NCBI GenBank assembly: GCA_012519925.1
Contig: JAAYPF010000196.1
Span: 1 to 36,745 of the forward strand
Direction: 5' to 3'
From: Clostridiaceae bacterium
Lineage (GTDB): Bacteria > Bacillota > Clostridia > Acetivibrionales > Acetivibrionaceae
DNA: 36,745 bases
Part shown: one piece after another, positions 5,999 through 36,183 of the stretch
Position numbering within the stretch: position 1 is the stretch's first letter
Layout of the letters: every line of letters starts with the position of its first letter
Made by a program: the position numbers and the translations under genes
Notes under the pieces: generated by a model
What the model was told of the DNA's origin: nothing
Seen by the model: the letters and a program-made list of their open reading frames with translations, nothing else
The model's database searches: none

Positions 5999-6265
5999 GG
6001 CCGTGCACCTGCCATCGACAAGTCTCCACAAGCGTTACCTACGCAGTTTGCTCGAATCAGGCATTTCCGCGGCACATGAAAGTGCCTACTTACCGCTGCT
6101 TTCTTCCGAACCTGACGGGATTCATAGGGTTTCATTGCGCAGGACCCGATTTTCATTGCCACTTACATAGGGCAGACCTAACAAAAACAAGCCTGAGACA
6201 GGAATTCAATCCTGCTATAGCGGATTGCAGGTACAGGGCACCGCTACCTCCCCATCTAGCACGAC
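5999..6265 (-). ncRNA. ffs: Signal recognition particle RNA (scRNA, large bacterial type)
   Basis: The RNA is about 267 nt, read on the minus strand. The universally conserved helix 8 core is present (GTCAGGTTCGGAAGAAAGCAGC, interrupted here: GTCAGG, then GGAAGAAAGCAGC, at about 6099-6123). The two ends pair: GUCGUGC at 6265-6259 with GCACGGC at about 6007-6001. The 5' part (GTGCTAGATGGGGAGGTAGC, then GGTGCCCTG) matches the Alu-domain start of Bacillus/Clostridium scRNAs, so this is the long form with an Alu domain, not the 4.5S form. With Ffh it targets nascent membrane and secreted proteins. The ends are estimated from pairing to within a few bases. Confidence 0.95.
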
Positions 6266-9803: not shown

Positions 9804-10997
9804 TTATAATTCTTTTGCTTCCCTTTTCAAATCCTCTGCCTTATCAGTCTTTTCCCAAGGCAGATCAAGATCATTTCTTCCAAAGTGTCCGTACGCTGCT
9901 GTCTGTTTATATATAGGTCTTCTCAAATCAAGACTTTTTATTATTGCTGCTGGTCTTAAGTCAAAATGCTTTTCTACAAGCATCTCTATCTTTTCTTCAG
10001 AAATTGAACCAGTTCCAAAAGTATCTACTCTCACTGATACAGGTTTTGCAACACCTATTGCATAAGCCAACTGTACTTCACATTTTTTTGCAAGTCCAGC
10101 AGCTACAATGTTTTTAGCCACATATCTAGATGCATAAGCTGCGGAACGGTCAACCTTTGTTGGATCCTTTCCTGAAAAAGCACCACCACCGTGTCTTGCA
10201 TATCCTCCGTACGTATCAACAATTATTTTCCTACCTGTAAGCCCTGAATCCCCTTGAGGTCCACCTACAACAAATCTTCCAGTAGGATTGATAAAATATT
10301 TTGTTTTACTATCAAGCAAGTTTTCAGGAATCACAGGCTTAATTACATGCTCAAGTATATCCTTTTCAATGGTCTCATGGTCAACCTCAGGACCATGTTG
10401 AGTTGAAATAACAACCGTTTCAACTCTAACAGGCTTGTCTCCATCATATTCTACAGTTACCTGAGATTTACCGTCTGGTCTCAAGTAATCTAATGTTCCG
10501 TCTTTCCTGACATCTGCAAGCTTTTTTGTAAGTTTGTGAGCAAGTGAAATAGGCATAGGCATTAATTCCTCAGTCTCATCACATGCATATCCAAACATCA
10601 TCCCTTGATCCCCTGCACCAATTGCCTCTATTTCAGCTTCTGACATTTCACCTTGTTTAGCTTCAAAAGCTTTGTCTACGCCCATTGCAATATCCGGAGA
10701 TTGCTCGTCAATTGAAGTCAATACAGCACAAGTATCTGAGTCAAAACCATATTTTGCTCTGTCATATCCTATTTCACGAATAGTATTCCTAACAATTTTC
10801 GGTATATCAACATAACAACGTGTTGTAATCTCTCCAGCCACTAAAACAAGTCCTGTAGTAACCGATGTCTCACATGCCACCCTAGCCATAGGGTCTTCAG
10901 AGTATATTGCATCTAAAACAGCATCAGAAATTTGATCGCATATTTTATCAGGATGCCCCTCAGTAACCGATTCAGAAGTAAATAGCTTTTTTGACAT
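9804..10997 (-). CDS. metK: S-adenosylmethionine synthetase (methionine adenosyltransferase)
   Basis: MetK makes S-adenosylmethionine from methionine and ATP. The 397-residue length and three-domain layout are standard. Signature sequences seen: [21 protein letters not shown] at the N-terminus, the [12 protein letters not shown] hexapeptide region near residue 118, and [19 protein letters not shown] (the P-loop-like signature) near 260. The ribosome site GGAGG precedes ATG by 7 bases. Expression should fall when SAM is abundant, through the SAM-I riboswitch at 11035-11175, and the transcript ends at the terminator at 9743-9793, so it is probably monocistronic. Confidence 0.99.
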
Positions 10998-11068: not shown

Positions 11069-11075
11069 TTTCTCT

Positions 11076-11175
11076 CCTCATCTGTCAGGACATTAATCCT
11101 GTAGGAATTGGCACCGATACTTTATGCCGGTTGCCGGGTTTCATAGGGCCCTTCCCTCCACCTCTCTTGATAAGG
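11076..11175 (-). promoter_or_regulatory. SAM-I (S box) riboswitch aptamer
   Basis: The minus strand carries the canonical S-box sequence: CTTATCAAGAGAGGTGGAGG (11174-11155), GGCCC...GAAACCCGGCAACC (P2/kink-turn and J regions), a P3 hairpin GGCATAAAGTATCGGTGCC, AATTCCTACAG and the closing GACAGATGAGG. P1 pairs CCTTATC (11175-11169) with GATGAGG (11082-11076). The family binds S-adenosylmethionine and shuts off methionine/SAM genes. It lies 80 bases upstream of metK on the same strand. Confidence 0.97.
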
Positions 11176-11203
11176 CTAACGCTGTATTATTTTGTCAGCT
11201 TAT

Positions 11204-23104: not shown

Positions 23105-25705
23105 TTATTCGCCAAACGCTTTAATGTATATCTCCTCAAGCTCCTTAACCAATGGTAATCTAGGGTTGGCATTGGTGCATTGGTCTTCAAAAGCTTTATC
23201 TGCAAGCATTGGAACCTTTGCTAGGAATTCCTTCTTATTAACCTTGCACTCAGCTATTGTCATTGGTATATTGACTTCCTTCATCAAATTTCTAACTGCT
23301 TTTACGAGGCTTTTCACACCCTCTTCCACAGTAGAAGCTGGAAGCTCTAAAGCTTTTGCTATCTCTGCGTATCTCTTATCTGCAATAAAGGTTTCATATT
23401 TCGGGAAGGATACAAATTTGCTCGGTTTTGAAGCATTATATTCTATTACATGCGGTAAAAGTATTGCATTCGCTCTACCATGAGGAATATTGAATTCGCC
23501 CCCTAACTTATGTGCAAGACTATGGTTTATACCTAAAAATGCGTTTGTAAACGCCATACCGGCTATACATGAAGCATTGTGCATTTTTTCCCTTGCTAAT
23601 TTATCATTTCCGTTTTTATATGCTTTTGGCAAATATTCAAAAACCAGCTGTATAGCTTTAATCGCAAGTCCATCTGTAAAGTCTGAAGCAAGCACTGATA
23701 CATAAGCTTCTATCGCATGGGTCAAAACATCCAAACCAGTGTCTGCAGTAACTGCTGGAGGAACTGTCATAACAAATTCGGGGTCAATTATGGCAACATC
23801 TGGTGTAAGCTCATAATCAGCAAGAGGATACTTAGTATTATTTGTCTTGTCGGTAATTACTGCAAAGGATGTAACTTCCGAACCTGTCCCCGAAGTAGTG
23901 GGGATTGCAACAAACTTGGACTTTTTACCGAGTTTAGGGAATTTGAATACCCTCTTTCTTATATCCATGAATTTAAGTCTTAAAGCATCGAAGTCAGTTT
24001 CGGGATTTTCAAAATAGAGCCACATTCCCTTTGCCGCATCAATTGCCGACCCTCCGCCTAGTGCTATAATAACGTCAGGCTGGAATTTTTTCATCATATC
24101 ACAGCCTCTCATTACTGTATCAACAGATGGATCAGGCTCAACTTCCGAGAATATCTCACAGTGTACATAGTCATGTCTCTTTCTTAAATAGTACAAAATT
24201 CTATCCACATAACCTAATTTAATCATGTAAGGGTCTGTGACAATAAATGCTCTTGATATATTAGGCATCTTCTCAAGGTATTGAGTTGAATCAAATTGGA
24301 AATATATCTTTTCAGGAATTTTGAACCACTGCATATTAACTCTTCTCCTCGCCACTCTCTTTTTGTTTATTAAATTGACAGCAGAAACGTTTGCTGTAGT
24401 GGAGTTTTTCCCGAAAGATCCACAACCTAATGTCAAAGAAGGCATATTTGTGTTATAAATGTCCCCAATAGCACCATGAGTCGAAGGAGAATTAATAATT
24501 AATCTTCCTGCCTTAATTCTTGTTGCAAATTCTTCTATTACCTTCTCATCTTCAGAATGAATTACAGCAGAGTGTCCAAGACCGCCAAACTCGACCATCT
24601 CTTCGGCAAGCTTTATTCCTTGTTCCCAACCATCCACAATATAATATGCTAGAATAGGGCTGAGCTTCTCCCTCGAGAGAGGATATTTAGGACCTACTCC
24701 GTTGAGCTTCGCAATCAAAATCTTAGTATCTTCTGCTACCTCAAAACCTGCCATTTTTGCAATCTTGTAAGGAGCTTGCCCTACAACATCTGGATTCATA
24801 GCACATTTTATTTCATCAATTGCTGTCTTTTCAAGCTTTTTGGTTTCTTCTTCATTTAAGAAATAACATTTATTTTCTTTCATAAATTTTTCAAACTCTT
24901 TACTAATAACCTTGTCGACGATAACTGCCTGCTCCGATGCACATATCATTCCGTTGTCAAAGGTCTTTGACATTATAAGATCGGTTGCTGCTCTTTTTAC
25001 ATCAACAGTCTTCTCAATATAACATGGAACATTACCAGGACCAACACCAAGGGCAGGTTTACCAGTGCTGTAAGCTGCCTGAACCATTCCTGCACCGCCT
25101 GTAGCAAGAACCATTGCTACTTTATGATGATTCATAAGTAGTTGAGTTGCTTCGATGGAGGGATGTTCAATCCATTGAATACAATTTTCCGGAGCACCAG
25201 CACTAATAGCAGCATCCCTTACAATTCTTGCAGCTTCAGCACTGCACTTCTGAGCTGAAGGGTGAAATGCAAATATAATAGGATTTCTTGTCTTAATAGC
25301 AATTAAAGCTTTAAACATGGTAGTTGATGTAGGATTTGTAACAGGAGTAACAGCGGCAACAATTCCTACAGGCTCTGCTACTTCAACATAATCTTCAAAA
25401 TCATTTTCGCTAATTACCCCAACAGTTTTATCATATTTTATGCTGTGATACACATATTCAGTTGCAAACATATTCTTAATCGTCTTGTCTTCATATATAC
25501 CTCTGTCAGTCTCATCAATAGCCAGCCTCGCAAGCCTCATATGCTCATCTAACCCTGCCATAGCCATTTCCTTAACTATGTTGTCTATCTTAGCCTGGTC
25601 AAACCCCATAAAATTATCTAGTGCACCTTGTGCTTTATCCACTAGCTTTTCAATTTCTTTTTTAACATCAACTGCCTTGTCTTTTTCCTTAACAGCTTCT
25701 TTCAT
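23105..25705 (-). CDS. adhE: Bifunctional acetaldehyde-CoA/alcohol dehydrogenase
   Basis: AdhE reduces acetyl-CoA to acetaldehyde and then ethanol, reoxidising NADH; the enzyme assembles into spirosomes. The 866-residue fusion has an N-terminal aldehyde dehydrogenase half (about 1-440) with the catalytic cysteine in FDNGMICASEQAV, and a C-terminal iron alcohol dehydrogenase half (about 455-866) with GGGSAIDAAKGMW, the PTTSGTGSEVT motif and the metal-binding histidines of GINHSLAHKLGGEFNIPHGRANAI (split here: GINHSLAHKLGG, IPHGRANAILLPHVI). I chose the second ATG, 8 bases after AGGAGG. Control by Rex is expected from the operator at 25834-25851. Confidence 0.98.
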   Translation of the reverse strand: MKEAVKEKDKAVDVKKEIEKLVDKAQGALDNFMGFDQAKIDNIVKEMAMAGLDEHMRLARLAIDETDRGIYEDKTIKNMFATEYVYHSIKYDKTVGVISENDFEDYVEVAEPVGIVAAVTPVTNPTSTTMFKALIAIKTRNPIIFAFHPSAQKCSAEAARIVRDAAISAGAPENCIQWIEHPSIEATQLLMNHHKVAMVLATGGAGMVQAAYSTGKPALGVGPGNVPCYIEKTVDVKRAATDLIMSKTFDNGMICASEQAVIVDKVISKEFEKFMKENKCYFLNEEETKKLEKTAIDEIKCAMNPDVVGQAPYKIAKMAGFEVAEDTKILIAKLNGVGPKYPLSREKLSPILAYYIVDGWEQGIKLAEEMVEFGGLGHSAVIHSEDEKVIEEFATRIKAGRLIINSPSTHGAIGDIYNTNMPSLTLGCGSFGKNSTTANVSAVNLINKKRVARRRVNMQWFKIPEKIYFQFDSTQYLEKMPNISRAFIVTDPYMIKLGYVDRILYYLRKRHDYVHCEIFSEVEPDPSVDTVMRGCDMMKKFQPDVIIALGGGSAIDAAKGMWLYFENPETDFDALRLKFMDIRKRVFKFPKLGKKSKFVAIPTTSGTGSEVTSFAVITDKTNNTKYPLADYELTPDVAIIDPEFVMTVPPAVTADTGLDVLTHAIEAYVSVLASDFTDGLAIKAIQLVFEYLPKAYKNGNDKLAREKMHNASCIAGMAFTNAFLGINHSLAHKLGGEFNIPHGRANAILLPHVIEYNASKPSKFVSFPKYETFIADKRYAEIAKALELPASTVEEGVKSLVKAVRNLMKEVNIPMTIAECKVNKKEFLAKVPMLADKAFEDQCTNANPRLPLVKELEEIYIKAFGE

Positions 25706-25763
25706 AATCATAACCTCCTAAATACACTTCTTTTTTATATTTGCTATTTAACCTCTTATAAGT

Positions 25764-25781
25764 TTGTTGTTTTTTTAACAC
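25764..25781. promoter_or_regulatory. Weak second Rex-like site in the adhE leader
   Basis: TTGTTGTTTTTTTAACAC matches 11 of the 14 fixed bases of TTGTTAANNNNTTAACAA. It lies about 60 bases downstream of the predicted adhE start site, where a bound repressor could block elongation. AT-richness makes chance matches likely. Confidence 0.3.
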
Positions 25782-25833
25782 ACTTAGCTAAAAATAATAC
25801 CCTAATTAAGAGCATTTTATAGTTTTGATTTCA

Positions 25834-25851
25834 TCGTTAATTATTTAACAA
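25834..25851 (-). promoter_or_regulatory. Rex operator over the adhE transcription start
   Basis: The minus strand reads TTGTTAAATAATTAACGA, matching the Rex consensus TTGTTAANNNNTTAACAA at 13 of 14 fixed positions. It begins 4 bases after the -10 box, covering the start site. Rex is the NADH/NAD+ sensing repressor of fermentation genes in Gram-positive bacteria; high NADH would release it and switch adhE on. Confidence 0.85.
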
Positions 25852-25855
25852 TTTC

Positions 25856-25884
25856 ATTATAAAACATTGTTATATTTTTGTCAA
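25856..25884 (-). promoter_or_regulatory. Consensus promoter of adhE
   Basis: On the minus strand a perfect TTGACA (25884-25879) and a perfect TATAAT (25861-25856) are separated by 17 bases. The transcript has a leader of about 140 bases before the adhE start codon. Confidence 0.88.
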
Positions 25885-25964
25885 TCTACTTTTTAAAATT
25901 TTTTCATATAAAATTGGAACTTTCTGCTTATTAATTAGTCTAATATATTTGGAGGTGTAAAGAT

Positions 25965-26300
25965 ATGAAAAAAAAGATGAAATTTACTTATACAATTATG
26001 ATATCCTTTATGCTGATGTTGCTAATTTGCCCTAATGAAATTCTTTCAAAATCAAGTGCAACAATAGAAGAAGGCACAAGTATTGAAAAAACTACTATTG
26101 TTTCTTGCCTTACAAAACAAGAATATTTGCAAAGTGAAGTCTCTATTTATCCAGAAATAATTATCTATGAGATTTATGACATTGATAAAGGTATGGTGTT
26201 TCAAGGGGATTCATCTATTGATCCGTATATATTAATTGCTCCCCCTAATAACAAGCATTTTGACTCTAAACATAGCAAACTTTTACCATCGGAGGAATAG
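25965..26300 (+). CDS. Small exported protein of unknown function
   Basis: The 111-residue product has a clear N-terminal export signal: a basic start (MKKKMKF), a hydrophobic core (about 8-23, TYTIMISFMLMLLICP) and a plausible cleavage region near ILSKSSA; a cysteine at residue 22 gives no good lipobox. The mature part is acidic and threonine/serine-rich, then contains SEVSIYPEIIIYEIYDIDKG and a histidine/lysine-rich tail. No family is recognised. The ribosome site GGAGGTG is 7 bases before ATG, so translation is well supported. It is divergent from adhE and followed at once by a hairpin. Confidence 0.75.
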   Translation: MKKKMKFTYTIMISFMLMLLICPNEILSKSSATIEEGTSIEKTTIVSCLTKQEYLQSEVSIYPEIIIYEIYDIDKGMVFQGDSSIDPYILIAPPNNKHFDSKHSKLLPSEE

Positions 26301-26331
26301 GATTATTGGATTAAGAAGACCTTATTCCTCT
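26292..26331 (+). terminator. Hairpin overlapping the stop codon of the small exported protein gene
   Basis: GAGGAATAGG (26292-26301) pairs with CCTTATTCCTC (26320-26330) with one bulge and is followed by TGTTT. The stem includes the stop codon. The T tract is short, so termination is only moderately likely. Confidence 0.5.
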
Positions 26332-26333
26332 GT

Positions 26334-26546
26334 TTACTGCAGCTGAATTTTCTACTTGATTACAGCCTTCGCCGCGGTATGTTATCTTGTTTTAGCTGCC
26401 TTGTCTTCACTTTCGGATATTGCCAATATTTCCTTGCTCAGTTACAATTATTTCAACACATTTTTAAGCATTTTTTTATGATTTGCCTCTCCAAAAGCTT
26501 TAATATATTCTATATTATATAATTGATTTTTGCTATGTAAAATCCA
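26334..26546 (-). pseudogene. Possible decayed reading frame, unknown family
   Basis: A single minus-strand frame reads HSKNQLYNIEYIKAFGEANH and KKMLKNVLK, then stops interleaved with LSKEILAISESEDKAAKTR and HTAAKAVIK. The frame does not shift across about 70 codons, but it holds five internal TAA/TAG codons. The residues look like a helical protein. No start or ribosome site is evident and I do not recognise the family. Confidence 0.3.
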
Positions 26547-26659
26547 TTAGCCCCCTCATCCTTAGTTTGTTTTTTTTTATCTAATGTCCTATACTAAAAA
26601 CAACTATTTATTTTCAAATGTTTTTTATAATATATGTTAACAAAGTATTTGACAAAAGC

Positions 26660-26688
26660 TTGATATTAATCCTTTGTAATGATAATAT
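26660..26688 (+). promoter_or_regulatory. Putative promoter of the V-type ATPase operon
   Basis: TTGATA (26660-26665) and TAATAT (26683-26688) are separated by 17 bases; a perfect TTGACA lies 10 bases further upstream (26650-26655) but has no -10 at a good distance. The leader to the first start codon would be about 180 bases. Confidence 0.5.
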
Positions 26689-26757
26689 ATTAGATAAATT
26701 ATCCATACGCATCATAAACATTACAGAACTATCTGAATGTTTTTATACACTATGTAG

Positions 26758-26790
26758 AATTATAAATAATATGTATAATTATTTTTTTTT
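26758..26790 (+). terminator. Weak terminator-like hairpin in the V-ATPase leader
   Basis: AATTATA (26758-26764) pairs with TATAATT (26774-26780), followed by A and nine T residues. A stem of A-T pairs only is unstable, but the T tract is strong. It could attenuate transcripts starting at 26695 or end upstream ones. Confidence 0.35.
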
Positions 26791-26872
26791 AATTACCGAT
26801 AATAAAATATAAACCTTAGTCAAATCTTAAATTAAAGCAATAATATAAATACATTTGCAAGGTGGTGATTAA

Positions 26873-27199
26873 GTGTCATTAGAAATACTGAAATCTATAA
26901 AGCAAACCGAAGATCAAGCTGAAGATATACAAAGACAGTCTTTAGATGATTCCCGCCAAATACTTTCTGAAGCTAACAATCAATCCTACAAACTTCAGGA
27001 ACAGGCAATAGAAGATGCCGAGAAAGATGCAAAAGATATCCTTATAAAGGCTGAAAAAGATGCGAACTCTGAAGTCGAAAAGTTACAAGCAAAAACAAAC
27101 AAAGAATGTGAAGAAATTAAAAACCATGCACGCAAAAAGCTTGACAATGCTGTAGAGATAATAACGAGAAGGGTTGTGAATATTTATGGCAATAGTTAA
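26873..27199 (+). CDS. V-type ATPase subunit G/H (peripheral stalk)
   Basis: The 108-residue protein is almost entirely coiled coil rich in A, E, K, D and Q (EDAEKDAKDILIKAEKDANSE, split: EDAEKDAKDI, LIKAEKDANS), the pattern of the AhaH/NtpF peripheral stalk subunit that pairs with subunit E and holds the stator against rotation. The start is GTG with GGTGGTGA 5 bases upstream. It is the first gene of the operon and overlaps the subunit I gene by 14 bases. The sequence is low in specific motifs, so the assignment depends partly on position. Confidence 0.85.
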   Translation: MSLEILKSIKQTEDQAEDIQRQSLDDSRQILSEANNQSYKLQEQAIEDAEKDAKDILIKAEKDANSEVEKLQAKTNKECEEIKNHARKKLDNAVEIITRRVVNIYGNS

Positions 27200-29150
27200 A
27201 ATGAGCAAACTTTCTCTTATAGGCCTTGAAACAGATAAGGAAAAACTGCTTGATACCCTTATGGACATCGGGGTTGTGGAAATAACCGAAAGCTCGGAAA
27301 GACTTTCTTCTGATGAATGGAAGGATTTAGTTGTACAGGATGGAAATAGCGAAGAAGTTGCTCTACTTGATGACAAAATAAATAATATAGAATGGGCTAT
27401 TGACTATCTTTCTAAATTTTTCTCTAAAAAGAAAGGTCTCTTTTCGTCGAAAAGATCTGTAAGCACAAATGAATATAACATAATGCTACAAAACACAGAT
27501 AAGCTTTCGACTGTCGTTGAAGATATTCTCAAGTATAATGACCAGCTTTCATACTTAAAATCAGAAAGAAATAAAAACAACAATCTAATTTTGAGCCTTA
27601 AGCCATGGAAGCAGTTGACTATTCCCCTTGATGTGACTTCAACTACAACTACTACAATAATGACAGGCATTATACCCCATACTTCAAGCTCAGGTACGTT
27701 AAAAGAAGATCTCTTAAATGAAGCTCCTGAAAGTTATCTTCAGACATTAAGCAATGACGAGCAGCAGGATTATATTCTTGTGATTTATCATAATTCTTGT
27801 GAGGAAAATGTTTTTAAAGTACTTAAGCAATATGCCTTCTCAAAAGTTTCTTTAAATGAACTAAGAGACACTGTTAATAGCAACATAGACAGTGCACAAA
27901 AGAATATTATCCGTATTGACAAGGAATATGAAGAGATAGAAAACAAAATTTCAGAATATGCAAAATATAAGGATGATCTTGAAATACTTCATGACCATAT
28001 GTTGGTCAAAAGAGACAGAATAAAGGTATTGGATAATTTAGTTAAAACTAACAGCGTGTTTCATCTTGAAGGGTGGTTTCCCTCTGAACTTAGTGATAAA
28101 CTTAAAACCATAATTAACAGCCAAGTAGAATGTCTCTTAGATATAACAGAACCTAATAAAGATGAAGAATTTCCCATTCTTTTTAGGAATGCTAAATTAA
28201 TTCAGCCTTTTGAAGCAATTACTGAAATGTACAGTTTACCTAGTTCTAGTGATGTAGATCCGAACTTTCTTATGGGTCCTTTTTACTGCTTTTTCTTTGG
28301 AATGATGGTTAGTGATGCTGCTTATGGTCTAGTAATAGCATTGATTACTGGAATAATTCTCAAGAAATATAAGCTTGAAGGAACTCTAGCAAAGATGATA
28401 AAACTCTTTTTCTTCTGCGGACTATCAACCCTCCTATGGGGTTCCATGTTCGGCGGATGGTTTGGAGATATACTTCCAGTTGTAACCGGCGGAAGAATAA
28501 ATATACCTCCTATATGGTTCAATCCATTAGATGACCCAATGAAACTTCTTATATGGTCCATGATATTTGGAGGTATCCATCTATTTACCGCTATGGGCAT
28601 TAAGGCCTATATGCTTATAAGAGATGGAAAACCTTTTGACGCAATCTTTGATGTAGGCTCATGGTACATCTTGTTAATAGGTTTACCATTACTTTTACTT
28701 GGAGGTACCCTTGCTCAAGTTGGTAAATACATGGCAATAATAGGTGCAGCAATGCTTATCCTAACACAAGGCAGAAATGATAAGAATATTATAAAGAGGT
28801 TATTGTCTGGTGTACTTAGCCTATACGATGTAACCGGTTATTTAAGTGATGTTCTGTCATATTCAAGGCTCTTAGCTTTGGGTCTTGGTACTGGAGTTAT
28901 TGCATCGGTTATAAATACTTTAGGAACATTGTTTGGATTTAATGTTTTAGGAATAATAGTTTTAGTTATAGTCTTTATCGGAGGGCACACCTTTAATATA
29001 GCTATCAATGCACTTGGAGCTTATGTGCACTCAAGTCGTCTTCAGTATGTTGAGTTTTTCGGTAAGTTTTACGAGGGTGGAGGCAAACGCTTTGAACCCT
29101 TTAAAAGGAATTCAAAATATATTACTTTAAATGACAAGGAGGCAATTTAA
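27186..29150 (+). CDS. ntpI: V-type ATPase subunit I (a subunit, membrane stator)
   Basis: This 654-residue protein forms the half-channels for ion entry and exit and anchors the peripheral stalks. The N-terminal half is soluble with long coiled coils (about 45-130 and 230-290); the C-terminal half (about 350-640) has around seven or eight membrane segments with the conserved FFGMMVSDAAYG, the LLSYSRLLALGLGTGVIA segment with the essential arginine, and HTFNIAINALGAYVHSSRLQ (split: HTFNIAINALG, AYVHSSRLQYVEFFGKF). It follows subunit G/H with a 14-base overlap and precedes subunit K by one base. Confidence 0.97.
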   Translation: MAIVKMSKLSLIGLETDKEKLLDTLMDIGVVEITESSERLSSDEWKDLVVQDGNSEEVALLDDKINNIEWAIDYLSKFFSKKKGLFSSKRSVSTNEYNIMLQNTDKLSTVVEDILKYNDQLSYLKSERNKNNNLILSLKPWKQLTIPLDVTSTTTTTIMTGIIPHTSSSGTLKEDLLNEAPESYLQTLSNDEQQDYILVIYHNSCEENVFKVLKQYAFSKVSLNELRDTVNSNIDSAQKNIIRIDKEYEEIENKISEYAKYKDDLEILHDHMLVKRDRIKVLDNLVKTNSVFHLEGWFPSELSDKLKTIINSQVECLLDITEPNKDEEFPILFRNAKLIQPFEAITEMYSLPSSSDVDPNFLMGPFYCFFFGMMVSDAAYGLVIALITGIILKKYKLEGTLAKMIKLFFFCGLSTLLWGSMFGGWFGDILPVVTGGRINIPPIWFNPLDDPMKLLIWSMIFGGIHLFTAMGIKAYMLIRDGKPFDAIFDVGSWYILLIGLPLLLLGGTLAQVGKYMAIIGAAMLILTQGRNDKNIIKRLLSGVLSLYDVTGYLSDVLSYSRLLALGLGTGVIASVINTLGTLFGFNVLGIIVLVIVFIGGHTFNIAINALGAYVHSSRLQYVEFFGKFYEGGGKRFEPFKRNSKYITLNDKEAI

Positions 29151-29151
29151 T

Positions 29152-29670
29152 ATGGTGATTACTAGTACAGCAAGTTCAGTAAATTGGGTAGAGTATTTTT
29201 TTAATGGGAATTTTCTTGCATTGTTAGGTGCGACGTTGGCTGTAGTTTTAGGCGGTATCGGCTCAGCAAAAGCTGTAGGATTAGTGGGTGAGGCAGCTGC
29301 GGGTCTTGTATCCGAAGAGCCTAAAAGATTCGGTCAAACGTTGCTTTTGCAGGCTCTTCCTGGAACACAAGGTATATATGGTTTGCTTACAGCCTTTGTT
29401 ATCCTAAACAAAATAGGTATCGTGGGCGGAACTTACGTAGAACTTACAACACAACAAGGTTTCTATTTCTTGGTAGCTTCACTTCCTATAGCTATTGTCG
29501 GTCTTATTTCAGCTATTAGCCAAGCTAAAGCAGCTACTGCTGGTATAGGTATTGTAGCTAAAAGACCAGAAGAACTAGCAAAAGCTATCATGTATGCAGC
29601 TATGGTTGAAACCTATGCGGTTTTGGCACTGCTTGCCTCAATTTTGATGGTAACGGGAATCAAATTATAA
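29152..29670 (+). CDS. ntpK: V-type ATPase subunit K (rotor ring), Na+-binding type
   Basis: The 172-residue proteolipid has four membrane helices, the fused double-hairpin form. It forms the rotor ring that carries ions. Residues equal to the five Na+ ligands of Enterococcus hirae NtpK are all present: L69, T72 and Q73 (LPGTQG), Q124 (ISQAKA) and E153 (MVETYAV), matching L61, T64, Q65, Q110 and E139 with constant offsets of 8 and then 14. I use the ATG at 29152, after AAGGAGG at 8 bases, rather than an ATG seven codons earlier. From established work on NtpK, this strongly suggests Na+ rather than H+ as the coupling ion. Confidence 0.97.
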   Translation: MVITSTASSVNWVEYFFNGNFLALLGATLAVVLGGIGSAKAVGLVGEAAAGLVSEEPKRFGQTLLLQALPGTQGIYGLLTAFVILNKIGIVGGTYVELTTQQGFYFLVASLPIAIVGLISAISQAKAATAGIGIVAKRPEELAKAIMYAAMVETYAVLALLASILMVTGIKL

Positions 29671-29688
29671 TAGAGGAGTGTCCCAAAA

Positions 29689-30285
29689 ATGTCAGGAGCA
29701 GAAAATATACAAGCCAAAATCCTTGAGGAAGCTCGTCTTCTTGCAGAAGCAAACATTAAACGGGCTGAAGAAGAAGCTGCAAGTATAATTAGAGCTGCAT
29801 CGAAGGAAGCTGAGGCTAAAAAAAAGCAAATAATTGAGAAAGCTGAGCTCGAAGCCGTAGAAATAAAGAAGAGAATTATTGCCGTTGCCGAACTTGAGGC
29901 AAGAAAGCAAAAACTTATGGCAAAACAGGAGGTCGTTGATGAAGCCTTTGAGTTGGCACTTAAAAAGCTAAACAACCTTCCTGACGTCGAGTATCAAAGC
30001 ATTCTTGTTGAAATGATCACAAACTCTATAGAAACTGGAAAGGAAGAAATATTATTATCCTTAAAGGATAAACAAAGGATATCCTCAGGTTTTATAGATG
30101 AATTGAATAAAAAACTTTTACAAAAGGGAATCTCAGCAAAAATGAAGATTTCCGAAGAAACACGAAATATTAGTGGAGGCTTTATATTAAAATCCGGTGA
30201 TATTGAGGTTAACAACTCCTTTGAATCAATAATAAGAATGTATCGTGACGATATAGAACCGGAAGTAATCAAATGTCTGTTTTAG
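29689..30285 (+). CDS. ntpE: V-type ATPase subunit E (peripheral stalk)
   Basis: The 198-residue protein has an N-terminal alanine/glutamate-rich coiled coil (about 5-80) and a C-terminal globular domain (about 95-198) with the SGGFILKSGDIEVNNSFESII strand-helix pattern (split: GGFILKSGDIEVNNSF) that binds the top of the A/B headpiece. It pairs with the G/H subunit as the peripheral stalk. GAGGAG lies about 10 bases before ATG. It is 18 bases after subunit K. Confidence 0.95.
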   Translation: MSGAENIQAKILEEARLLAEANIKRAEEEAASIIRAASKEAEAKKKQIIEKAELEAVEIKKRIIAVAELEARKQKLMAKQEVVDEAFELALKKLNNLPDVEYQSILVEMITNSIETGKEEILLSLKDKQRISSGFIDELNKKLLQKGISAKMKISEETRNISGGFILKSGDIEVNNSFESIIRMYRDDIEPEVIKCLF

Positions 30286-30333
30286 TTATCTTAAAACTGT
30301 TTACTTATTTCTTAAAGAAAGGAGGGAATTTGA

Positions 30334-31353
30334 TTGCCAAAGGATACTAGAAATAACGACACCCAATACGCATATTCGGTCGGAAAAATACGTGCTATCG
30401 AACGTAAGCTCCTAGATAAGGGGAAACTCGACAGAATGGTTGAGGCTAAGACCCCTGAAGAAGCATTAAAAGTGCTTCAAGAAGCCGATTATGGTAAAGG
30501 GGGTTCAGATTCGGTAAATATTTACGAATATGAAAATTTGCTTAGAGATGAAAACAAAAAAGTATACAATCTTATGAAAGAAATTGCCCCAGAACCAGAC
30601 GTATTTGACTTATTCCTGATATCTAACGACTATCATAACATTAAGGTTCTTCTCAAGTCAGAGTTTTCTGGACAGGATTATGCCAGTCTCCTTGTAGAAT
30701 CAGGTTCCATCCCGTCAGATAAATTGAAGGCAATGATCAGGGATAGAAATATGGCTAATATGCCTGCTATCATGAAGAATGCAGTAGAAGAGTGTATTGA
30801 AGTATATAATAAAACATTAGATCCTCAGGTTATTGATATAATTCTCGATAAGGCTAGTTTTAAGCAAATGAAGGATACTTCTATAAAGTCCGGAAAAGGA
30901 TTTATCAAGGATCTTGTAATGCTATTCATTGACCTTGCCAATATAAAAGTCTTTTTAAGAGTAAAAGCTCTAAGTAAGACTTGGGATTTCCTCCAGAAGG
31001 TTCTCATCCCGGAAGGTAGTATAGACAGCAAGGTCTTTATTCAAAACTTGGATAATCCTTTAGATAGCTTTATAGATGCCTTGAAATTTACTTCATTGGG
31101 TGCTTTTTTGCAAGAAGGTATTGAAAGCTTCAAAAGCACTGGAACATTGACAAAATTTGAAAAACTATCGGACAATCTTATTTTGAATTATGTAAAAAAA
31201 TCAAAATATATATCCTTAGGTATCGAACCTCTTGTAGGCTACTTGATGGCAAAGGAAATGGAAATTAAAAATGCTCGGATTGTGATGGTGGGCAAAATTA
31301 ACAATATTTCTAATGAAGTTATTAGGGAAAGGCTGAGAGAAGCTTATGTTTAA
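30334..31353 (+). CDS. ntpC: V-type ATPase subunit C (d-type, central stalk-rotor link)
   Basis: This 339-residue, mostly helical protein is the socket that couples the central stalk (D/F) to the K ring. Features typical of the V/A ATPase C (AC39-like) family include YAYSVGKIRAIERKLLDKGK near the N-terminus, NDYHNIKVLLKSEF near 108-121, DLANIKVFLRVKAL, and the final EPLVGYLMAKEMEIKNARIVM block. The start is TTG, 6 bases after GGAGGG. It overlaps the subunit F gene by 8 bases. Confidence 0.96.
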   Translation: MPKDTRNNDTQYAYSVGKIRAIERKLLDKGKLDRMVEAKTPEEALKVLQEADYGKGGSDSVNIYEYENLLRDENKKVYNLMKEIAPEPDVFDLFLISNDYHNIKVLLKSEFSGQDYASLLVESGSIPSDKLKAMIRDRNMANMPAIMKNAVEECIEVYNKTLDPQVIDIILDKASFKQMKDTSIKSGKGFIKDLVMLFIDLANIKVFLRVKALSKTWDFLQKVLIPEGSIDSKVFIQNLDNPLDSFIDALKFTSLGAFLQEGIESFKSTGTLTKFEKLSDNLILNYVKKSKYISLGIEPLVGYLMAKEMEIKNARIVMVGKINNISNEVIRERLREAYV

Positions 31354-31666
31354 GATAGGAGTTATCGGTGACAAAGATAGTATTTTGGGTTTTAAAGCTG
31401 TTGGTATGTCTGTATTTCCTGTAACTACACCTTTCGAGGGACAGGAAATATTGGAGAAGATAGCCGAAGAAAACTATGCTGTCATATATATAACAGAGCA
31501 CGTCGCTAAGGACATTGTACAAACCATTGATAAATACAGTGATCGAAGATTTCCTGCTATAATACCAATCCCCAGTAATCAAGGATCTTTAGGAATTGGT
31601 ATGAGTGGAGTTAAAAAAAGCGTTGAACGTGCTGTTGGTGCGGATATTTTATTTAGAGATGAGTAA
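31346..31666 (+). CDS. ntpG: V-type ATPase subunit F (central stalk)
   Basis: The 106-residue protein has the Rossmann-like fold of subunit F (NtpG in E. hirae): the start FKIGVIGDKDSILGFKAVGM, the central AVIYITEHVAKDI and the end PIPSNQGSLGIGMSGVKKSVERAVG (split: PIPSNQGSLGIGM). With subunit D it forms the rotating central shaft. Its ATG lies inside the end of the subunit C gene (8-base overlap), indicating translational coupling. Confidence 0.96.
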   Translation: MFKIGVIGDKDSILGFKAVGMSVFPVTTPFEGQEILEKIAEENYAVIYITEHVAKDIVQTIDKYSDRRFPAIIPIPSNQGSLGIGMSGVKKSVERAVGADILFRDE

Positions 31667-31718
31667 GGCTATTTGGCTTAATTGGCATTTAAATTTTTAT
31701 TGAAAGAAGGGATAAAGT

Positions 31719-33497
31719 TTGAGCCAGGGAACAATCGTAAAAGTCTCAGGGCCATTGGTAATAGCTGAAGGCATGAGAGAATGCAATATGTTTGATGTTG
31801 TCCGAGTAAGTGATCAACACTTAATCGGCGAAATAATCGAAATGCACGGTGATAAAGCATCAATACAGGTTTATGAAGAGACTGCAGGTCTAGGTCCCGG
31901 CGAGCCGGTAGTATCAACCGGGGCTCCACTAAGCGTTGAACTTGGTCCGGGTCTTATAGAAACAATATTTGACGGAATACAAAGACCTCTTGTTACAATA
32001 CGTGAAATGGTAGGAAGCAACATAACAAGAGGAATTGACGTAACTTCGCTGGACAGAAAGAAAAAATGGAAGTTTGAACCGACGGTTGAAAAGGGTATAA
32101 AAGTTACTGCCGGTGATATTATCGGTAAGGTTCAGGAAACAGCCGTTGTAGAACATAGAATAATGATTCCTTTTGGTGTAAGCGGTGTTATCATCGAGAT
32201 AAATGCAGGAAATTTCACAGTGGAAGATACAGTAGCAAAAGTAAAAAAAGACGATGGTGAAATAGTAAATATCCAGATGATGCAAAAATGGTCGGTACGT
32301 AAAGGCAGACCCTATAAGGAAAAACTAGCCCCAGAGGAGCCTCTTGTCACCGGGCAAAGAGTTATAGATACTCTCTTCCCTTTAGCTAAAGGTGGAGTTG
32401 CCGCTGTACCGGGACCTTTCGGAAGTGGAAAAACCGTTGTACAGCATCAGCTTGCAAAGTGGGCAGATGCTGAAATAGTGGTATATATAGGCTGCGGTGA
32501 ACGTGGTAATGAAATGACGGATGTTCTAATGGAATTCCCTGAGCTAAAGGACCCAAGAACAGGTGAATCTCTTATGAAGAGAACTGTACTTATAGCTAAT
32601 ACTTCCGATATGCCAGTTGCCGCTAGAGAAGCCTCTATTTATACGGGAATTACCATTGCAGAATACTTTAGAGATATGGGGTACAGTGTTGCCCTCATGG
32701 CAGACTCAACATCAAGATGGGCAGAGGCTTTAAGGGAGATGTCCGGACGTCTTGAAGAAATGCCTGGGGAAGAGGGGTATCCTGCTTATCTTGGCTCAAG
32801 GCTCGCACAGTTCTATGAAAGAGCAGGTAGAGTTATTAGTCTTGGAACAAACGGAAGAGAAGGAGCCCTTACTGCAATTGGGGCGGTTTCACCTCCTGGA
32901 GGGGATATTTCCGAACCAGTTACTCAAGCTACCCTTAGAATAGTAAAAGTTTTCTGGGGATTGGATGCAAGCCTCGCATACAGGCGTCACTTCCCTGCAA
33001 TAAACTGGCTGCTTAGCTATTCATTATACTTAGACAGACTTGATAAATGGATAAACGAAAAAGTAGCTCGGGATTGGAACAGCCTAAGATCTGATACCAT
33101 GAGACTTTTACAGGAAGAATCAGAACTAGAGGAAATTGTAAGACTCGTTGGTGTCGATGCTCTCTCCCCTAGTGATAGGCTTACCCTTGAAGCCGCAAAA
33201 TCAATACGTGAGGACTATCTTCACCAAAACGCATTCCATGATGTGGACACATATACCTCCCTTAATAAGCAGTATAGAATGCTAAAACTTATAATGGGCT
33301 TCTATTATAAAGGACAAAAAGTCCTTGAGGCTGGTGCCTCCATAAAAGAGCTTTTTGAATTACCGGTTAGGGAGCGTATAGGAAGAGCGAAATATACGCC
33401 TGAAGATCAGGTTGATAAAGTGTTCCATGAAATTGAGACACAGCTCAATGAGCAGATAGATTCACTAACATCAAAGGAGGTGGCAAATAATGCTTAA
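31719..33497 (+). CDS. ntpA: V-type ATPase catalytic subunit A
   Basis: The 592-residue catalytic subunit binds and hydrolyses ATP. It shows the N-terminal beta barrel ([16 protein letters not shown]), the A-type non-homologous insert (about 110-200, EFEP-like [13 protein letters not shown] and GVSGVI), Walker [13 protein letters not shown] near 230-240, the [13 protein letters not shown] motif with the catalytic glutamate, [22 protein letters not shown] (split: [16 protein letters not shown]) and the helical C-terminal domain. The start is TTG with AGAAGGG upstream. It overlaps the subunit B gene by 8 bases. Confidence 0.98.
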
Positions 33498-34863
33498 AGA
33501 GTATAAAACTATTTCTGAAGTGGCCGGTCCTTTGATGCTTGTAAAGCAAGTTGAAGGAGTTAAGTTCGGAGAACTTGGTGAAATCGAACTATCAAACGGT
33601 GAAATAAGACGATGCAGGGTTTTAGAGATAGACGGCACTAATGCACTTGTACAGCTTTTTGAAAGCTCTGCCGGGATAAACGTTGCAGAAAGTAAAGTAA
33701 GGTTTTTAGGAAGAGGTTTAGAGCTCGCCGTATCGATGGATATGCTTGGAAGGGTATTCAGTGGTCTCGGAATACCTATTGACGGAGGACCAAATATCAT
33801 TCCTGACACCAGACTTGACATGAATGGTACTCCAATGAATCCTGCGGCTAGAAACTATCCCTCTGAATTTATTCAGACTGGTGTTTCAGCTATAGACGGA
33901 TTAAATACTCTTGTCCGAGGACAAAAGCTTCCTATATTCTCTGGCTCAGGTCTGCCCCATGCACAGCTAGCTGCACAGATAGCCAGACAAGCAAAAGTTC
34001 TAGGAACGGACAGTAAGTTTGCTGTTGTTTTTGCCGCCATAGGTATAACCTTTGAAGAAGCAGACTTCTTTATATCTGACTTTAAGCGCACAGGTGCCAT
34101 AGATCGTACTGTTCTTTTTATTAATCTTGCAAATGACCCAGCTATCGAGCGTATAGCAACACCACGTATGGCTTTGACGGCTGCCGAATACCTTGCCTTT
34201 GAGAAAGATATGCACGTGCTCGTAATCCTTACGGATATAACAAACTATGCGGAAGCACTCCGTGAAGTATCAGCTGCAAGAAAAGAAGTTCCGGGTAGAA
34301 GAGGTTATCCCGGTTACCTATATACCGACCTTGCTACTCTATATGAAAGAGCAGGAAGAAAGCTTGACAATGAAGGCAGCATAACCTTGATACCTATACT
34401 AACAATGCCGGAAGATGATAAAACACATCCTATTCCGGACCTTACAGGATATATCACCGAAGGTCAGATTATTTTAGGAAGAGAACTCCACAGAAAGGAT
34501 GTTACTCCTCCTATAGATGTTCTACCATCCCTATCCCGTCTTAAAGATAAAGGGATAGGAAAAGGCAAAACAAGAGAAGACCATGCAGATACTATGAATC
34601 AGCTGTTTGCAGCCTATGCAAGGGGTAAGGAAGCAAAGGAACTTGCTGTAATCCTAGGTGATGCTGCATTAACTGATGTTGACAAACTTTATGCCAAATT
34701 TGCAGATGCTTTTGAAAAGGAATATGTTTCCCAAGGCTTTGATGAGGATAGAACTATAGAACAAACCCTCGATATAGGCTGGAAGCTTCTTTCCATTTTA
34801 CCTAGAAGTGAGCTTAAGCGTATTAGGGACGAATACCTTGACAAATATCTACCGAAAGCATAA
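33490..34863 (+). CDS. ntpB: V-type ATPase regulatory subunit B
   Basis: The 457-residue B subunit alternates with A in the hexameric head and completes the catalytic site with an arginine finger. It starts with the beta barrel ([20 protein letters not shown]), lacks a true Walker A ([21 protein letters not shown]-type loop, shown in part: [15 protein letters not shown]), and carries [28 protein letters not shown] (part: [15 protein letters not shown]) and [21 protein letters not shown] lies 7 bases before ATG, inside the end of ntpA. Confidence 0.98.
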
Positions 34864-35030
34864 ATAAAATTAGCAACATCAGCCCTAAAATTATATTGAA
34901 CTTAATTGGCATTTTACATTAAGAATAAAAACTATGGATCAATAAATCCCTATGTTTTTACCTCTTTAGCTTTGTTCTAAAGTGGCAAATATATAAGTTC
35001 AATTAACAGATGTACATGTTTTCTCGAAGT

Positions 35031-35064
35031 CTTGGAAAATTGTATATACAGTGTTTTTCGAGAA
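35031..35064 (+). promoter_or_regulatory. Hairpin just upstream of the subunit D gene
   Basis: TTCTCGAA (35031-35038) and TTCGAGAA (35057-35064) form an 8-bp (9 with the next T-A) perfect stem with an 18-base loop, ending about 8 bases before the AAGGAGAG ribosome site of ntpD. The 224-base gap between ntpB and ntpD is the longest inside the operon. The hairpin may be an mRNA processing or stability element. Confidence 0.45.
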
Positions 35065-35087
35065 ATATGTAGAAGGAGAGAATTGTT

Positions 35088-35744
35088 ATGGCACTTATGC
35101 GAGTTAACCCAACGAGAATGGAGCTCACTCGTCTTAAAAAAAGACTGAATGTTGCCCGAAGAGGCCATAAGCTTTTAAAAGATAAAAGGGATGAATTGAT
35201 GAAGAAATTCCTTGAACTAGTCAGGACGAATAAGGAGCTCCGTGAAAAGGTTGAAGAAATGTTGATGACAGTACACAGGAATTTCCTTATAGCTAGAGCC
35301 GTCATGTCCTCGGAAAGTTTGGAGGCTGCACTTATGTTCCCAAAACAAAGTGTATCCCTTGAGGTGTCGACAAAAAACGTTATGAGCGTTGATGTCCCTG
35401 TACTTGAGTACAAGACCTCAAGTCCCGATGATACTGATATATACCCCTACGGTTTTGCAGCAACATCTGCTGAGTTAGATGGTGCAATAGGAACATTATC
35501 TAATGTCCTTCCATATATTTTAGAGCTTGCTCAGATGGAGAAATCAGCACAGCTGCTTGCGGAAGAGATAGAAAAAACCAGAAGAAGGGTTAATGCCCTT
35601 GAGTATGTTATGATTCCTCAACTAGAAGAGACCATCAAGTACATTACCATGAAACTTGATGAAAATGAAAGAGGTAATCTTACAAGGCTCATGAAGGTTA
35701 AGGACATGATGATTGAACAGGCTAGACAGGCAATGAATGAGTAA
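35088..35744 (+). CDS. ntpD: V-type ATPase subunit D (central stalk)
   Basis: The 218-residue subunit D is the rotating axle inside the A/B head, built of two long antiparallel helices. The N-terminus ([20 protein letters not shown], then [17 protein letters not shown]) and the C-terminal helix ([21 protein letters not shown], part: [15 protein letters not shown]) are the family signatures. AAGGAGAG precedes ATG by 6-7 bases. It is the last gene of the operon, followed by a strong terminator. Confidence 0.97.
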
Positions 35745-35808: not shown

Positions 35809-36183
35809 CTAATTAGTATCCATATAAATATTAGGAAACCTATTACTATTATATAAGATAGTTTCATCAAATTGAATTTTTGAACTTGCAAATCTTCCAG
35901 TTTCATGCAAAACTTGCAATCCAGTTTCATCTTCGTTGAAAAGGCTTTGTTGTTCAGGTATAGTCTGTTCGCTTGAACGCCCATAGCGTCTGTGCCGTTC
36001 AAGACGAATTCTTTCCTCAAACCAAAAGAGCTTAGCCAAAAGATCCACTTTTTCATTTTCCAAAAGTGCTATTTTATCTTGTAATTCAGAAATTACATTT
36101 TGATCGGCTGAAACCGCTTGTTTTATAGTATTTTTTATGTGTTTATTGTATCTAATTTTATCAAAAATGCCATAGAAAAACAA
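35809..36183 (-). pseudogene. Truncated IS66-family transposase (TnpC N-terminus)
   Basis: The frame encodes ISELQDKIALLENEKVDLLA, then KLFWFEERIRLERHRRYGRSSEQT and IPEQQSLFNEDE, which is the leucine-zipper N-terminus of IS66-type transposases (the L-x-W-F-E-x-x-R-L-x-x-H-R-R-x-G-x-S-S-E pattern). After LFNED the sequence diverges (GLQVLHETGRFASSK) and stops at 124 codons, whereas intact TnpC has around 500, so the zinc finger and DDE domains are gone. The first 24 residues also look non-native. No tnpA or tnpB is present upstream, so this is a relic, not a working element. Confidence 0.8.

Follow-up and report, generated by a model that had tools for sequence, protein, structure and literature searches.

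A V-type ATPase rotor subunit with the complete NtpK sodium ligand set in a Clostridiaceae bacterium, predicted to couple ATP to Na+

The closest solved relative of the rotor subunit described here is NtpK of the Enterococcus hirae V-type Na+-ATPase. In the passages of PMC2359735 that deal with this ring, L61 of NtpK ligates Na+ by its backbone carbonyl, and Y68 is a non-ligating residue that steadies the glutamate. The complete ligand set was used by Mulkidjanian et al. (2008, PMC2359735) to predict ion specificity, and in the comparison cited from that study the predicted Na+ enzymes carry Ser, Thr, Gln or Arg at the Q65 position, whereas those predicted to use H+ are all aliphatic there. 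The E. hirae ring reportedly discriminates hardly at all between Na+ and H+ (PMC3692424). The E. hirae VoV1 complex is described as making ATP from a Na+ gradient, but its role in vivo is considered to be that of a pump (PMC12018189). A pairing of F-type and V-type enzymes has been reported for E. hirae and Clostridium thermocellum, and the V-ATPase of the latter (Cthe_2261-2269) was proposed as a Na+ pump (PMC3039559). C. thermocellum is likewise clostridial and, by the published description on which we base this likeness, has complete F-type and V-type clusters (PMC3039559).

We analysed a window of 36,745 nucleotides, which is the whole stretch of DNA considered here (contig JAAYPF010000196.1 of a Clostridiaceae bacterium), and located in it an ntpK gene within a nine-gene ntp cluster. 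The gene is predicted to encode an NtpK-like rotor, as in E. hirae, belonging to a complete V1Vo ATPase that is coupled to Na+ under ordinary conditions, a reading to which we assign a probability of roughly 0.88. The coordinates of the cluster and of the ion-site codons are collected in Table 1.

Table 1 Features of the ntp cluster and of the ion site of subunit K in the window.
Feature	Position	Strand	Basis
Peripheral-stalk subunit H/G (E. hirae ntpF position)	26873..27199	+	AhaH 45 bits, under cut-off 48.5; partly position
ntpI, subunit I/a, 654 aa	27186..29150	+	Pfam V_ATPase_I 81 bits, cut-off 30.7
ntpK ribosome-binding site AAGGAGG	29136..29142	+	Direct reading of the sequence
ntpK, V-type ATPase rotor subunit K, 172 aa	29152..29670	+	NCBIfam, Pfam, 2BL2 homology, model
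L69 codon (NtpK L61, backbone-carbonyl ligand)	29356..29358	+	Alignment; coordinates by arithmetic
T72 and Q73 codons (NtpK T64, Q65)	29365..29370	+	Alignment
Y76 codon (NtpK Y68, non-ligating)	29377..29379	+	Alignment; role as described in PMC2359735
Q124 codon (NtpK Q110)	29521..29523	+	Alignment
E153 codon (NtpK E139, principal ligand, expected DCCD target)	29608..29610	+	Alignment
ntpE, subunit E	29689..30285	+	NF003049 E 5.6e-22, below cut-off; partly position
ntpC, subunit C/d	30334..31353	+	NF002266 388 bits, cut-off 270
Subunit F	31346..31666	+	NF002384 143.6 bits, cut-off 114
ntpA, catalytic subunit A	31719..33497	+	NF003220 941 bits, cut-off 470
ntpB, subunit B	33490..34863	+	NF003235 786 bits, cut-off 349
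ntpD, subunit D	35088..35744	+	NF001543 347 bits, cut-off 290

The ntpK reading frame runs from an ATG to its stop codon without an internal stop. An alternative in-frame ATG lies at 29131, and the start at 29152 is preferred because the ribosome-binding site is placed for it. The product scores 211 bits against NCBIfam NF005124 (cut-off 127) and is matched in two stretches by Pfam ATP-synt_C. Its homology to NtpK extends over the full length of both hairpins, with residues 19-168 aligned by phmmer to NtpK 11-154 (2BL2) at an E value of 7.6e-38. The AlphaFold model has a mean pLDDT of 93.3 and contains helices at 19-55, 57-87, 100-137, and 139-168, forming two hairpins of four transmembrane helices in total. 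The sequence-only reading of this locus had proposed a structural alignment to NtpK as a check, and we ran it with the model, which superimposes on 2BL2 with a Z score of 23.5 and an rmsd of 1.6 Å over 154 residues at 49% identity; the next structural matches are eukaryotic H+ V-ATPase c subunits at Z scores of at most 19.7. Both proteins are two-hairpin rotors with one carboxylate per protomer, and subunit K differs from NtpK in its longer N-terminus and in an inter-hairpin loop that is longer by six residues.

The five ligand positions of NtpK, L61, T64, Q65, Q110, and E139, are occupied in subunit K by L69, T72, Q73, Q124, and E153, so that all four side-chain ligands are present, and the non-ligating tyrosine Y68 is shared as well (Y76). 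The offsets to NtpK numbering are +8 in hairpin 1 and +14 in hairpin 2, with the six-residue insertion between them, and the alignment to 2BL2 has no gaps around any ligand. The five matches and their consistent offsets, which had been noticed from the letters alone, are thus confirmed. The side chain of L69 is uninformative in this respect, since L61 ligates by its backbone carbonyl (PMC2359735). A match produced by chance or by an alignment artefact was considered and rejected as having a negligible probability, given the E value of an alignment that has no gap at any ligand, the structural match to 2BL2, and the conserved columns described below. The homology, the fold, and the ligand set are directly supported here.

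In the proposed mechanism, a single dehydrated Na+ would be coordinated by E153 in the last helix, by Q73 and Q124, by the hydroxyl of T72, and by the backbone carbonyl of L69, with Y76 steadying the glutamate. Hairpin 1 carries G71 at the place that matches E153 of hairpin 2. E153 is the single carboxylate at the ion site of the protomer, and with Gly in hairpin 1 where hairpin 2 has Glu, one ion site and hence one Na+ would be expected per four-helix protomer. ATP hydrolysis in A3B3 would rotate the shaft of subunits D, F, and C together with the ring against subunit I, resulting in Na+ export, and the reverse direction, in which a Na+ gradient drives ATP synthesis, would be possible.

To place the site in its family, two sets of K proteins were compared, and the conservation claim rests on these. 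The first comprises all 31 K genes of near relatives above the family cut-off, and the second comprises all 98 K-type matches across the phylum at an E value of 1.6e-29 or better, the own gene being excluded from both; matches at 1.7e-9 and worse, which are single-hairpin or partial, were left out of the phylum set before counting. The threonine, both glutamines, and the glutamate are kept in every protein of the first set (31/31) and in 95 of the 98 in the second, where the remaining three have Ser for Thr. Furthermore, Q73, Q124, E153, and Y76 are identical throughout the phylum set (98/98), in which the mean column identity is 57% and 14 of 152 columns are conserved at 98% or more, these four among them. 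The L69 column of the same proteins is variable (L 72, I 21, V 3, M 2), which fits a ligand that acts through its backbone carbonyl. Over the 129 rows of the two sets together (G058 is in both), (T/S)-Q-Q-E is found in all, and the T72 column holds Thr in 126 rows and Ser in the other three. The invariance of Q73, Q124, and E153 in 129/129 rows, with only T or S at T72, indicates strong constraint on the ion site. A separate set of 80 loci from named genomes, obtained from 83 by removing three copies of the own locus (L001, L002, L004), gives 80/80 for the four side-chain ligands and 77/80 with the leucine kept as well, and we treat it as biased because its retrieval patterns contained ligand residues. 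As judged from the near-relative and phylum sets, the Na+ ligand set characterises the sampled subfamily throughout, and ntpK is therefore an ordinary addition to a known family.

The comparison with H+ rings shows which of the ligands carries information. The human V-ATPase c subunit (6WLW) shares the four-helix fold with subunit K (Z 19.7) and the Glu in the last helix, and differs in having Ile at the T64, Q65, and Q110 positions (I64, I65, and I110, the last located by counting residues without gaps from the conserved Pro and Glu, and not by a full alignment). The ring in 6QUM, the H+ ring of the Thermus thermophilus V/A-ATPase, is built from a single-hairpin subunit. It shares the transmembrane Gln, Glu, Thr, and Leu with subunit K, and it has Leu at the NtpK Q65 position, where subunit K has Q73, and Phe at the tyrosine position. 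The earlier statement that H+ rotors usually lose the glutamine and threonine ligands thus holds for the human subunit and fails for the Thermus ring. The idea that H+ rings are marked by lacking the full ligand set is rejected on account of the same ring, which keeps four of the five positions.

Q73 is accordingly the informative residue among V-type rings, because the Thermus H+ ring lacks only that Gln among the ligands and because an aliphatic residue at this position marks the predicted H+ enzymes compared in PMC2359735; subunit K has no aliphatic residue there. On this sequence comparison, the best discriminator between subunit K and H+ V-type rings is Q73 and not the complete set of ligands. 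Coupling of the ATPase to Na+, which had been predicted from the sequence, remains the best reading, and it agrees with the practice of judging by the full ligand set described in PMC2359735; the accompanying rule about lost Gln and Thr is amended as above.

A rotor that carries Na+ ligands could still move H+ in the cell, if cytoplasmic Na+ is too low or if the site is a relic. The reported near non-selectivity of the E. hirae ring (PMC3692424) means that the ligand set permits Na+ and that H+ would still be possible at low Na+; Na+-dependent ATPases are also described as able to move H+ when Na+ is absent (PMC2359735), and the Thermus H+ ring retains most of the site. Against H+ pumping stand the constancy of the ligands over the 129 rows, the polar Q73 at the position where the predicted H+ enzymes in PMC2359735 are aliphatic, and the presence of an H+-like F-type ring in the same genome. 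We consider H+ pumping improbable on this balance, and Na+ coupling is the reading that we follow.

Subunit K is encoded together with the other V1Vo subunits, third in a cluster that spans 26873-35744 on the forward strand in the order H/G, I, K, E, C, F, A, B, D. This matches the order ntpFIKECGABD of the E. hirae operon. The gene set is directly supported as well, with the assignments of H/G and E resting partly on position. Among solved structures, subunits I and A are both closest to the E. hirae V-type Na+-ATPase. For subunit I the closest solved relative is the V-type sodium ATPase subunit I in 8WCI (E 6.2e-81 over residues 1-652), and the second match is far weaker (E 7.9e-18); its nine NCBIfam matches are all V-type subunit I, every one of them below cut-off. 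For subunit A the closest solved relative is V-type sodium ATPase subunit A at 839.5 bits, which says little on the ion because A-type ATPase subunit A scores nearly as high (826 bits).

The genome (3.9 Mb in 253 contigs, 99.98% complete) encodes further ion-coupling machinery. It has two c-type ring genes, ntpK and one other c subunit, an F-type c at G000:C129:18847-19035 (locus L003), whose neighbouring ORFs were recognised by eye, without a family search, as F-type a and b subunits. Compared with the sodium ring 1YCE, this F-type c carries Ile in place of Q32 and Ala in place of S66, with the Thr of T67 and the Tyr of Y70 retained. Since two Na+ ligands (Q32 and S66) are missing, the ligand criterion set out in PMC2359735 predicts that the ring uses H+, and with Thr at T67 the aliphatic-residue rule does not fit it. 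RnfD is encoded, and its neighbour ORFs were read by eye, again without a family search, as further Rnf subunits. Two OadB-type proteins are also encoded; a third OAD_beta match scored below cut-off, contains two stops, and was left uncounted.

A membrane pyrophosphatase (G000:C125:400-2397, locus L136) completes this inventory. Its scores against a solved plant H+ pump (427 bits), a Na+ pump (414.5 bits), and a K+-insensitive H+ pump (413.5 bits) do not, as similarity measures, discriminate an H+ from a Na+ pump. It reads DISADLVGKVE where the plant H+ pump has DVGADLVGKVE. At the K+-site motif it has GNTVKA against GNTTAA of the plant pump, with Lys in place of Ala. Such a lysine is tied to K+-independent pyrophosphatases, and both K+-independent rows in the cited table of a review are H+ pumps (PMC6882861). 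From this one position and that source, the enzyme would be of the K+-independent type.

These genes bear on the suggestion, made from the rotor alone, that the anaerobe has a sodium gradient. Rnf and the two OadB-type proteins make a Na+ circuit plausible, and the suggestion is incomplete in view of the H+-like F-type c and the K+-independent-type pyrophosphatase, because of which an H+ circuit is probably operating as well. Sodium would then probably be one of two coupling ions in the cell. The pairing of a Na+-type V-ATPase with an H+-like F-ATPase in one genome makes the genus a candidate for the study of two ion circuits per cell.

The same inventory raises the question of direction. The V-type enzyme could serve chiefly to make ATP from a Na+ gradient supplied by Rnf or a decarboxylase, with the same Na+ mechanism and only the direction changed. 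Possible sources of the gradient are present in Rnf and the OadB-type proteins, the capacity for synthesis from a Na+ gradient is described for E. hirae VoV1 (PMC12018189), and a V-type enzyme has been credited with ATP production in an anaerobe described as having no F-type genes (PMC9600882). The genome studied here has a separate F-type ATPase, and the E. hirae enzyme is held in the same source (PMC12018189) to be a pump in vivo; both points argue against synthesis as the main role, which we regard as rather unlikely. With Na+ as the presumed ion of the cell, ATP-driven pumping would be the main direction.

Na+ riboswitches are described as accompanying V-type ATPase genes in enterococci and clostridia (PMC9337991), and riboswitch control is a non-defining feature of the Na+ V-ATPase itself. 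The family RF03071 is absent at its gathering threshold across the window, and no match up to an E value of 10 was found in 25700-27250. Neither the own genome nor G001 gave a match in a search over 60 genomes, in which 77 candidates were scored per genome under stricter filters, so that weak matches can be lost. G002 has three Na+ riboswitch matches, on a contig different from that of its K gene. Among the 32 K-bearing genomes, a riboswitch near K was found in G038 of the same order only, where RF03071 scores 49.2 bits (gathering 40.5) at L272:3510-3566 on the reverse strand, some 150 bases ahead of the first ORF in the equivalent ntp operon and on its strand. This single case in 32 genomes weakly favours a Na+ function of the family, and does not speak directly for the operon in the window, for which the lack of a riboswitch match counts as a point against the Na+ reading.

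The survey of relatives covered 60 genomes, own included, of which 32 have a Na+-type K above the family cut-off. Another c subunit is present in 23 of these 32, and none was detected in the other nine, several of which are incomplete. The 24 other c subunits (two in G025) were read as F-type in 14 cases and as a second, A-type-like ring in 10, and 23 of them lack the Q32-equivalent glutamine. The c subunit of G058 keeps this Gln and has Thr, Ala, and Leu at the S66, T67, and Y70 positions. We tentatively suggest, at somewhat less than even odds and from these gene complements, that members of the order may commonly combine a Na+ V-ATPase with a second ring without Na+ ligands, F-type or A-type-like. 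ATP would serve as the exchange currency between the Na+ and H+ circuits of a single membrane, and the H+ partner would have been swapped between lineages with the Na+ site staying fixed.

The A-type-like second rings (L118, L120-L127, L259; 10/32 genomes) have Glu followed by Gly and Ile, with Val at the Gln position, and bear an N-terminal extension.

On a tree of K from the 32 genomes (loci L085-L114, L249, L250), two clades are split at 100/98 support; the tree is drawn from a short protein with a midpoint root, and the long branches G026 and G058 are placed unsurely. Clade 1 contains the own genus (3 genomes) and 10 others with GTQ/VETY, and clade 2 contains the other 10 genomes of the own family and 9 others, with STQ/VE(M or V)F in 18 of 19 (exception G014). 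The ligands are kept in both clades, and the own family does not form one clade. The separation of the own genus from the rest of its family may reflect horizontal exchange or paralogue loss.

Several other features lie in the window. Between adhE and the ntp operon, at 25965-26300 on the forward strand, is a 111-aa ORF with a signal-like N-terminus and no Pfam match. Just 3' of ntpD, a short ORF on the reverse strand (35809-36183) contains part of the leucine-zipper domain of an IS66 transposase (PF13007, positions 1-35 of 71) and is probably an insertion-sequence remnant or edge. A bacterial large SRP RNA is located at 6001-6264 on the reverse strand. A SAM riboswitch at 11075-11176, also on the reverse strand, lies upstream of an ORF at 9804-10997 (reverse strand) that presumably encodes S-adenosylmethionine synthetase.
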